Shown here one piece after another: positions 27,629-56,748 of a stretch of 64,000 nucleotides of DNA; within the stretch, counting starts at the first letter, position 1; the number at the start of each line of letters is the position of its first letter. The position numbers and the translations under genes were made by a program. The stretch is from Acidobacteriota bacterium (GTDB taxonomy: Bacteria > Acidobacteriota > Vicinamibacteria > Vicinamibacterales > JAKQTR01): NCBI GenBank assembly GCA_026393675.1, contig JAPKZQ010000045.1, positions 186,001 to 250,000 on the forward strand. Reading direction: 5' to 3'. Under the pieces are notes generated by a model. That model was not told the DNA's origin, did not search any database, and saw nothing but the letters and a program-made list of their open reading frames with translations.

Positions 27629-27752
27629 CTCAGTGCTTCGACTCGCAAGTACCGTTGCGTATTCCTGCGAGGCGATCCGCAATTAACGCTCGCTCAGCAC
27701 TGAGTCCTACGTGAATAAGTTCGTTGCCGAACTTATGACCCGAAGGACTCAG
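27629..27752. repeat. 124-bp structured repeat, copy A
   Basis: This noncoding element is repeated in inverse orientation at 56624-56748, roughly three-quarters identical by manual alignment with one 1-nt indel. Its ends are imperfect inverted repeats: CTCAGTGCTTCG at the left, and CGAAGGACTCAG at the right, whose complement is CTGAGTCCTTCG. It contains a perfect 9-bp hairpin, ATAAGTTCG (27715-27723), loop TTGC, CGAACTTAT (27728-27736). This is enclosed by a second stem CTGAGTCCT/AGGACTCAG (27700-27708, 27744-27752). Another pairing, CTCAGTGCT with AGCACTGAG (27629-27637, 27696-27704), is mutually exclusive with the outer stem. The right end forms the last codons of cinA. Confidence 0.8.
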
Positions 27753-29064
27753 GAGCCCCACACACGACAAACGCCCCGCCGATGTCCGCGCCGATCAGCA
27801 CGCGACGGACCATATCGAGGGCCATCTGGGCGGCAAACTGCTTGACGCGCTGCCGGCCTCCAGGAAAACGGAAGGTCCGCACGATGCGGGCAGTCGGGGT
27901 GACGGCCGCAATGGCCACCGTCCCCACCGGCTTGCGCTCGCTGCCTCCGGTCGGACCGGCGATCCCGGTCACGCCGACGCTCACTTCCACACCGGCCCGC
28001 TCGCGGACGCCATCCGCCATGGCCAGGGCCACTTCCTCACTCACGGCGCCGTGCACGTGGATAAGTGCCGTCGGTACCCCGAGCCAGGTGGTCTTCGATT
28101 CGTTGTTGTAACACACCGCATTCACGAACACATAATCTGAACTGCCGGGCACGTCGGTCAGCCGCGACGAGATCAATCCGCCCGTGCAGGATTCGGCAAC
28201 GGCTATTCGCCAGCCCCGCTGGCGAAGCGCGTCTCCCACGACCTGCTCGAGCGCCCGCCCGTCGATGCTGAAGGTATCGGCACCAACGACCGCCACCACC
28301 TGCCTGGCGGCATCATCGAGCCTGGCCATGCCGATCGCTTCTGTGTCGGCGTGCACCGAGAGGTGCAACTCGATCTGCGCGGATACCGTTAGCACCGTGG
28401 TCGCGATGGGCAGCGCCTCGCGCGCCCAGCGGGAGTAGGTCGGAAAGACCATCTCCTCGACCTCGGACTCGGTCCGGCCACAGATTCTCAGCACCTTCCG
28501 GCAGAGTTTCCGGCCTCCGGCCCGCGGCGCGAGCCGCTCGGCGGCCACCCGCGTGAACATCGGCTCGAGTTCACCGGGCGGTCCCGGCAGCAGGATCAGG
28601 ATTCGCCCATCGCGTTCGATCCACAACCCTGGTGCGGTCCCGTTCTGATTGGGCAGGACCTCTGCCCCAACTGGCACCAGGGCCTGGCGCCTGTTTGTCT
28701 CGGCCATGCGCATGCCACGCGACGCGAAGCGTTGGCGGATGCGATCGAGCACCAGTTCGTCTTCAACCAGCCTCATCGCCAGCAGCCCGGCGACGGCATC
28801 GCGCGTCAGATCGTCGTCGGTGGGCCCGAGCCCTCCGCACATCACGACCAGTTCGACCCGGTCCAGCGCCACGCGCAGCACTGCCGCGACATCGTCCCGC
28901 CGGTCGCCCACCACCGTCTTGGCGCGTACCTCGATGCCCAGCTCGTTGAGACATCCGGTGATGAAGAGGGAATTCGTGTCGACGCGCGGCGGCACGAGCA
29001 ACTCGGACCCGACGGCGATAATCTCCGCCCAGCGCAGACCGATCGTGCCGGCCGTCTCCGTCAT
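27733..29064 (-). CDS. cinA: CinA-like protein / NMN amidohydrolase
   Basis: The 443-residue protein has an N-terminal MoaB-like nucleotide-binding domain (AEIIAVGSELL, TVVGDRRDDV, CGGLGPTDDDLTRDAVA, LLPGPPGELEPMF). The C-terminal CinA domain (AESCTGGLISSRLTDVPGSSDYVFVNAVCYNNESK, SVGVTGIAGPTGG) deamidates nicotinamide mononucleotide in PncC proteins. The start ATG at 29064 overlaps the pgpA stop. The last six or so codons and the TAA stop lie inside repeat element A, so the C-terminal tail PESFGS comes from the element. Confidence 0.92.
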   Translation of the reverse strand: MTETAGTIGLRWAEIIAVGSELLVPPRVDTNSLFITGCLNELGIEVRAKTVVGDRRDDVAAVLRVALDRVELVVMCGGLGPTDDDLTRDAVAGLLAMRLVEDELVLDRIRQRFASRGMRMAETNRRQALVPVGAEVLPNQNGTAPGLWIERDGRILILLPGPPGELEPMFTRVAAERLAPRAGGRKLCRKVLRICGRTESEVEEMVFPTYSRWAREALPIATTVLTVSAQIELHLSVHADTEAIGMARLDDAARQVVAVVGADTFSIDGRALEQVVGDALRQRGWRIAVAESCTGGLISSRLTDVPGSSDYVFVNAVCYNNESKTTWLGVPTALIHVHGAVSEEVALAMADGVRERAGVEVSVGVTGIAGPTGGSERKPVGTVAIAAVTPTARIVRTFRFPGGRQRVKQFAAQMALDMVRRVLIGADIGGAFVVCGAPESFGS

Positions 29065-29543
29065 CTCATCCACTCCGGGCGCCACCAGACGAGGACCTGC
29101 ACGACCAGGTTCGCGTACACGCCGGCCATCGCATCATCGGCCATGATACCGAGGCCACCCCCGAGGTGCTCGAACCGGCCTGCTGGCCATGGTTTGATGA
29201 TGTCAAACACGCGAAACACGAGGAAGGCGGCCACCACAACCGGCCACGACAACGGCAGCCACAACAGGCTGACCAGCATGCCGACCACTTCGTCGATCAC
29301 GACCACCCCGGGGTCTTCGACGCCAAGATGGTGCTCGACGACCGTGGCACTCCAGACGCCGATGATAAACAGCCCGACGGCCACGGCGAGATCGAGCCAG
29401 TGGTACCCGAGCATTCGAAGCGGCACAATCAGGAGCAACCCCGCGACCGACCCAGCCGTGCCCGGTGCAATCGGTGAGTACCCGGAGTATCCGAACGTAG
29501 AAACGGCAAGCGCGACACGGGAACCGACGGTGTGTGGTTTCAT
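29061..29543 (-). CDS. pgpA: phosphatidylglycerophosphatase A
   Basis: PgpA dephosphorylates phosphatidylglycerophosphate to phosphatidylglycerol. The 160-residue membrane protein has the PgpA motifs STFGYSGYSPIAPGTAGS, VVIDEVVGMLVSL and RVFDIIKPWPAGRFEHLGGGLGIMADDAMAGVYANL, the last with the conserved Asp residues. ATG 29543 was chosen because the open frame further upstream overlaps the preceding RDD gene; ATG 29573 is less likely. It overlaps cinA as ATGA. Confidence 0.92.
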   Translation of the reverse strand: MKPHTVGSRVALAVSTFGYSGYSPIAPGTAGSVAGLLLIVPLRMLGYHWLDLAVAVGLFIIGVWSATVVEHHLGVEDPGVVVIDEVVGMLVSLLWLPLSWPVVVAAFLVFRVFDIIKPWPAGRFEHLGGGLGIMADDAMAGVYANLVVQVLVWWRPEWMR

Positions 29544-56623: not shown

Positions 56624-56748
56624 CAAAGTCCTTCGATTCATGAATTCGGTGACGAATTCATTCACTCAGGACTTAGTGCTGAGCGAGCATCTTTCACCGC
56701 ATCGGCTCACAAGCATCCGCAACCGTACTTGCGAGTCGAAGCACAAAG
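56624..56748. repeat. 125-bp structured repeat, copy B
   Basis: This inverted copy of the element at 27629-27752 lies between purA (minus) and hutU (plus). The hairpin ATGAATTCG (56640-56648), GTGA loop, CGAATTCAT (56653-56661) corresponds to the A-copy hairpin. Two positions of the stem differ in both arms so that pairing is kept. The outer stem also shows one compensated change (G-C to A-T) plus one mismatch. The most conserved blocks are GTGCTTCGACTCGCAAGTAC and GCTCGCTCAGCACT (in the A orientation). Confidence 0.8.

Follow-up and report, generated by a model that had tools for sequence, protein, structure and literature searches.

In the window, by which we mean the whole 64,000-nucleotide stretch of DNA that was analyzed, a structured repeat of about 125 nucleotides occurs twice, and our analysis gives good support to the view that it represents a real, MITE-like family that is new and apparently undescribed. 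Mobility of this family is near certain, and we infer the mechanism by which it moves. As is characteristic of MITEs, the element is multi-copy, carries no open reading frame (ORF), and has precise empty sites in related genomes; a search of the literature for the repeat core found no paper. The original prediction of a MITE/REP-like mobile element is borne out by further copies, precise empty sites, and correlated stem changes, and neither of the two outcomes that it had named as contrary to a structured family, a lack of further copies and uncorrelated stem changes, was observed.

The two copies, A and B, were found in place and are 79% identical to each other, where about three-quarters identity had been estimated. 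Their features are as follows:

27629..27752, + strand: element copy A, CTCAG...CTCAG, 124 nt
27629..27633, + strand: 5′ pentamer of A, CTCAG, probably derived from the target, judging by the empty sites of other copies
27700..27704, + strand: internal pentamer of A, CTGAG, complementary to both end pentamers
27715..27736, + strand: right-end hairpin of A, ATAAGTTCG/CGAACTTAT, a covarying stem
27748..27752, + strand: 3′ terminal pentamer of A, CTCAG
27733..27752, − strand: final codons and stop codon of cinA, which lie within copy A
56624..56748, − strand: element copy B, CTTTG...CTTTG, 125 nt
56744..56748, − strand: 5′ pentamer of B, CTTTG
56672..56676, − strand: internal pentamer of B, CTAAG, complementary to the end pentamers in 4 of its 5 bases
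56640..56661, − strand: right-end hairpin of B, ATGAATTCG/CGAATTCAT
56624..56628, − strand: 3′ terminal pentamer of B, CTTTG

Window-wide, the 19-base 5′ motif GTGCTTCGACTCGCAAGTA occurs only at A and B (0.00 expected). The predicted perfect central stem (ATAAGTTCG/CGAACTTAT in A versus ATGAATTCG/CGAATTCAT in B), the compensated outer-stem pair, and the imperfect inverted repeats at the ends are all present in the two copies, whose folding also surpasses that of 200 shuffles (z −4.6 for A and z −3.7 for B). Both copies adjoin gene starts as described, A near thpR and B near purA, but A is on the strand opposite to thpR (PF02834), 8 nt upstream of it. The cinA ORF (27733-29085, − strand) takes its C-terminal codons and stop from the last 20 bases of copy A, and copy B lies within the 5′ region of purA (PF00709), which is divergent from hutU (PF01175).

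The genome-wide search for further copies that had been proposed revealed a sizable family. The window's own genome contains 40 full-length copies and one partial match, 76–100% identical to A, and an exact 5′-motif search of the same genome added 11 more places, for a total of at least 51 in 3.25 Mb. When aligned, the copies have sharp ends, with CTNAG at each end and random, unconserved sequence beyond, and the consensus reads CTNAG-TGCTTCGACTC-variable stem-GCTCGCTCAGCA-CTNAG-TCCTGAGTGAATAAGTTCGTCGCCGAACTTATGAATCGAAGGA-CTNAG. Conservation falls on the outer arms, on the stretch surrounding the internal CTNAG, and on the base of the right hairpin. The left stem, by contrast, varies from copy to copy, is wholly different in other lineages (GGCCACG/CGTGGCC), and is missing from copies L140 and L084. 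Reverse-complementing the joined ends AGGACTNAGTGCT gives the internal segment AGCACTNAGTCCT, as the alignment also shows; the joined ends form a near-palindrome around CNNNG, of which AGCACTNAGTCCT is the inverted copy. Four half copies (L120, L125, L137, and L139) end at the internal GCTCAG and are most plausibly products of deletion between CTCAG repeats; a reading as separate elements was rejected. At a site beside a groES-like gene, the sister species G001 has a 5′-half copy (L139), while the window has no recognizable element there (~38632, − strand). In another copy, L095, a stretch of about GTGTGCATCGAA at the 3′ end is tandemly duplicated, unlike in its orthologue L077.

The paired stem changes described for A and B hold across the 40 copies of the same genome, in which we counted 57 double-change cells versus 21.9 in shuffles; stem pairing in these copies fell from 87% to 26–38% once partners were slid by 1–3 columns. 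As judged from pair counts, compensatory change keeps the right-end hairpin and a helix between the internal segment and the 3′ end, and pairing of the 5′ end with the internal segment, as an alternative helix, is backed by pair counts as well. The three column pairs with the highest mutual information are internal N/3′ N, 5′ N/internal N, and 5′ N/3′ N. Two other candidate pairings were rejected: a pseudoknot, CUUCGA/UCGAAG, of which both sides are nearly invariant and the exceptions uncompensated, and a 5′:internal helix, GTGC/GCAC, which is not kept in another lineage (GTAC/GCAC).

A check for empty sites, likewise suggested at the outset and run in sister genomes for copies other than A and B, found clean ones, with the CNNNG pentamer present once at the empty site and twice at the occupied site. 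The insertion target is CNNNG, mostly CTNAG. In G001, the sites of L002, L005, L018, L034, L037, and L118 are without the element. Comparison of genomes G034 and G051, which share ~95% DNA identity, yielded seven empty sites: the pentamer is present once at those of L100 (CTTAG), L102 (CTGAG), L106 (CGAAG), L097 (CTAAG), L076 (CTTAG), L054 (CTCAG), and L066 (GTTAG). For L026/L138 and L053/L104, the site is filled in both species, with each copy closer to copies in its own genome than to its partner, and L098 and L103 occupy the same site in two species in opposite orientations. Given these unlike or oppositely oriented copies at shared sites, sites appear to be reused. True orthologues between species were found in L014/L059, which are 92% identical versus 89% in their flanks, and in L117/L140.

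The element is multi-copy in six genomes (G000, G001, G003, G024, G034, and G051) and present in few copies in four others (G009, G059, G165, and G181); its multi-copy relatives include other Acidobacteriota. In a sample of the phylum, it was found in 5 of 396 genomes, the window's own included. An exact 20-base core pattern matched 37 stretches among 84,980 species genomes, mostly Acidobacteria/Vicinamibacterales; the remaining matches are in single metagenome-assembled genomes (MAGs) labelled Brocadiaceae, Methylomirabilota, Ignavibacteriales, and Deltaproteobacteria, where single copies may reflect MAG contamination. Plasmids, phages, and viral contigs contained no match. One copy in G034 (L086/L043, C356:992-1116) matches the consensus of the window's genome at 96% identity and is unlike its host's other copies; the two genomes belong to different families of the order, and this copy reflects either horizontal transfer or contamination. 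G034 and G051 also harbor dozens of copies of a second dispersed palindromic repeat of ~65 bp (ACAGATTCCAGGG...CCCTGGAAGATGTCTAG), at the edge of which the 125-nt element lies in at least four places (L093, L096, L103, and L061). Among 44 copies with enough surrounding sequence, 3 are inside an ORF, with ORFs predicted from a simple rule on composition; tandem genes flank 22 copies (9 in the same and 13 in the opposite orientation), divergent genes 12, and convergent genes 7. Overlap of the target with a stop codon (TAG) or a ribosome-binding site is frequent and would account for the closeness of copies to gene ends.

The most informative feature of the family, missed by the original prediction, is a three-way match: agreement among the 5′ pentamer, the 3′ pentamer, and the reverse-complemented internal pentamer is far more frequent than in shuffles. 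Among 101 copies, drawn from all sources and compared over NNN, the 5′ and 3′ pentamers are equal in 61 (12.9 expected), the internal pentamer matches the 3′ one in 64 (16.3 expected) and the 5′ one in 49 (12.9 expected), and none of 5000 shuffles reached any of the three counts, which are descriptive only since shuffling leaves the relatedness of the copies in place. Matches beyond CTNAG (5′/internal/3′) include CGTAG/CTACG/CGTAG, CCTAG/CTAGG/CCTAG, CTTTG/CAAAG/CTTTG, and CGAAG/CTTCG/CGAAG, and the pentamers include CTNAG, CATAG, CGTAG, CCTAG, CTTGG, CTTCG, CTTTG, and CGAAG. In copies with unequal ends, the 3′ pentamer is the pairing partner of the internal one in 21 cases and the 5′ pentamer in 6. 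In L054, L097, L076, L106, and L118, which have unequal ends and a known target, the 5′ central bases equal those of the target, and the 3′ ones differ. Equal ends combined with a non-matching internal pentamer occur in 5 of 17 near-identical young copies; in young copies L100, L102, and L060, the 3′ pentamer equals the 5′ pentamer rather than the complement of the internal one, and comparison of L100 with L103/L093 indicates that the 3′ pentamer is not strictly inherited along with the internal one.

The three-way match and the asymmetry of the ends are most economically explained by guide-directed movement of a single strand, and we tentatively favor a non-autonomous MITE-like element of ~125 nt that may be guide-directed and move as a folded single strand. 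The internal pentamer would serve as a guide that pairs both with the 3′ end of the element itself and with the target directly 5′ of the insertion, and the folded single strand would be moved by a transposase supplied in trans and acting as in IS200/IS605 (HUH/Y1) elements. The target pentamer would stay on the left, and the right-end pentamer would be borne by the element. It is possible, and we say so with more reserve, that the internal pentamer of this transposase-free element programs the target by base pairing and that a new enzyme moves it, with guide, right end, and target having drifted together many times. Strand relative to GC skew showed no bias (19 of 44 copies), the skew here being too weak for a fair test.

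IS608 inserts 3′ of TTAC, which remains in the left flank (PMC5934647), and its cleavage sites are chosen by pairing to guides (PMC5934647, PMC6006769). Our element resembles IS200/IS605 members (IS608, ISDra2) in its probable insertion on the 3′ side of a short target that would remain in the left flank, its subterminal hairpin, and a putative guide 5′ of the hairpin that pairs with the cleavage/target site (PMC5934647, PMC6006769). In IS608, the left and the right end each have a guide of their own, directly 5′ of a hairpin, whereas here one shared internal pentamer is complementary to both ends, above shuffles; the present element also differs in that its ends share a pentamer, its 125 nt hold no gene, and no TnpA is linked to it in any locus examined. 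Since no transposase with these ends was found, we propose that the element works like IS200/IS605, not that it is a member. With REP/REPIN sequences mobilized by TnpA_REP (RAYT), it shares intergenic location, short length, two inverted halves, the lack of an autonomous copy, and a hairpin with a short guide motif (PMC8266576). Unlike them, it has no GTAG tag, the RAYT-like genes of its own genome adjoin other palindromes, and three carriers have no Y1 match. Bacterial MITEs of the ERIC and Correia/NEMIS types are of similar size, with palindromic ends, intergenic dispersal, and a short direct repeat at the ends; our element differs from these in its CNNNG target and in an internal segment that covaries with the target.

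The search for a mobilizing enzyme, which covered the Y1, IS110, and DDE_Tnp_1 families, detected no Y1 transposase (PF01797, E ≤ 0.001) in G001, G034, and G051, all of them multi-copy carriers; Y1 transposases are present in G000, G003, G009, G024, G059, G165, and G181. In the loci examined, Y1/RAYT genes flanked by the element's ends were not above chance, and the Y1 genes of G000 adjoin other palindromes. The window's genome has two RAYT-like Y1 transposase genes, L041 and L042, bordered by GATCGCCGGGCTCCAGCCCGGC-type palindromes and CCGGGTCT-type repeats, respectively, which are a REP system separate from the 125-nt element. The IS110 transposase (PF02371), found in 2 of 8 carrier genomes and absent from G001, G034, and G051, was rejected as the host enzyme on account of this distribution. 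DDE_Tnp_1 (PF01609) is encoded in 6 of the 8, with no match in G003 and G009, and the PF01609 loci examined had no ends matching the element. No pair of ends 0.5–5 kb apart, as an autonomous version would have, was present among the matches listed for G000, G034, and G051 or among the leading part of those for G001, and no gene-bearing copy was present in the loci examined. An autonomous partner with shared ends defines only those MITEs whose parent survives.

Among the other explanations, an ordinary MITE moved by a DDE transposase, with target CTNAG, a 5-bp (or 3-bp TNA) target-site duplication, and the terminal inverted repeat GT[GAC]CTTCGA[CT][TG]C, is less likely; the internal match would then stem from later selection on the foldback stem. 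The terminal inverted repeats, albeit imperfect, are consistent with such an element, equality of the 5′ and 3′ ends is the strongest correlation among young copies (12 of 17 over NNN), and in L100 and L066 the central base of the target recurs on either side. Target duplication is also the better fit for the young copies with equal ends and an unmatched internal pentamer and for the loose inheritance of the 3′ pentamer. By itself, however, it does not predict the match between target and internal pentamer (49 of 101 versus 12.9), the 3′ side differs from the target in the five copies whose ends are unequal and whose target is known, no IS-like spacing of repeats occurs among the matches listed for four genomes, and the PF01609 evidence points the same way. 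We also regard as less likely that a site-specific recombinase, for example a tyrosine recombinase, exchanges strands in a staggered fashion over a 5-nt overlap; such an exchange would need homology between a circle junction (GAATCGAAGGA-CNNNG-TGCTTCGACTC) and the target and would generate mixed end pentamers through heteroduplex resolution. The near-palindromic joined ends with their inverted copy AGCACTNAGTCCT, the mixed inheritance of the 3′ pentamer in young copies, and the opposite orientations of L098 and L103 at one site would suit it, but the 5′ central bases equal the target in 5 of 5 informative cases rather than in half, and a duplex mechanism has no need of hairpin covariation.

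A structured RNA with a cellular function, spread passively, had been offered as the alternative to a mobile element. Covarying stems, wide distribution, and the retention of some orthologous copies between species (L014/L059) speak for it, but it is made very improbable by the empty sites, the turnover at shared sites, and the patchy occurrence in the phylum sample; moreover, the mixed orientation to neighboring genes argues against a cis-regulatory RNA, and no family matched the element in an Rfam covariance-model search. Least probable of all is a non-autonomous IS110-type element with a bridge-RNA-like guide: the complementarity of the internal segment to the joined ends, as read from the alignment, recalls a donor-binding guide, but there is a single pairing segment instead of two loops, and PF02371 is missing from most carriers.

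That a guide directs the choice of target in single-strand transposons is established for a few elements and through engineering. The present family numbers more than 100 short copies with covarying guide, end, and target; it would offer a natural data set on guide evolution, and its unlinked mobilizer would be worth finding. A mobile family explains a dispersed repeat that resembles a conserved regulatory RNA beside genes such as purA, and self-programmed targeting, if true, would make its copies a natural series of retargeted elements.
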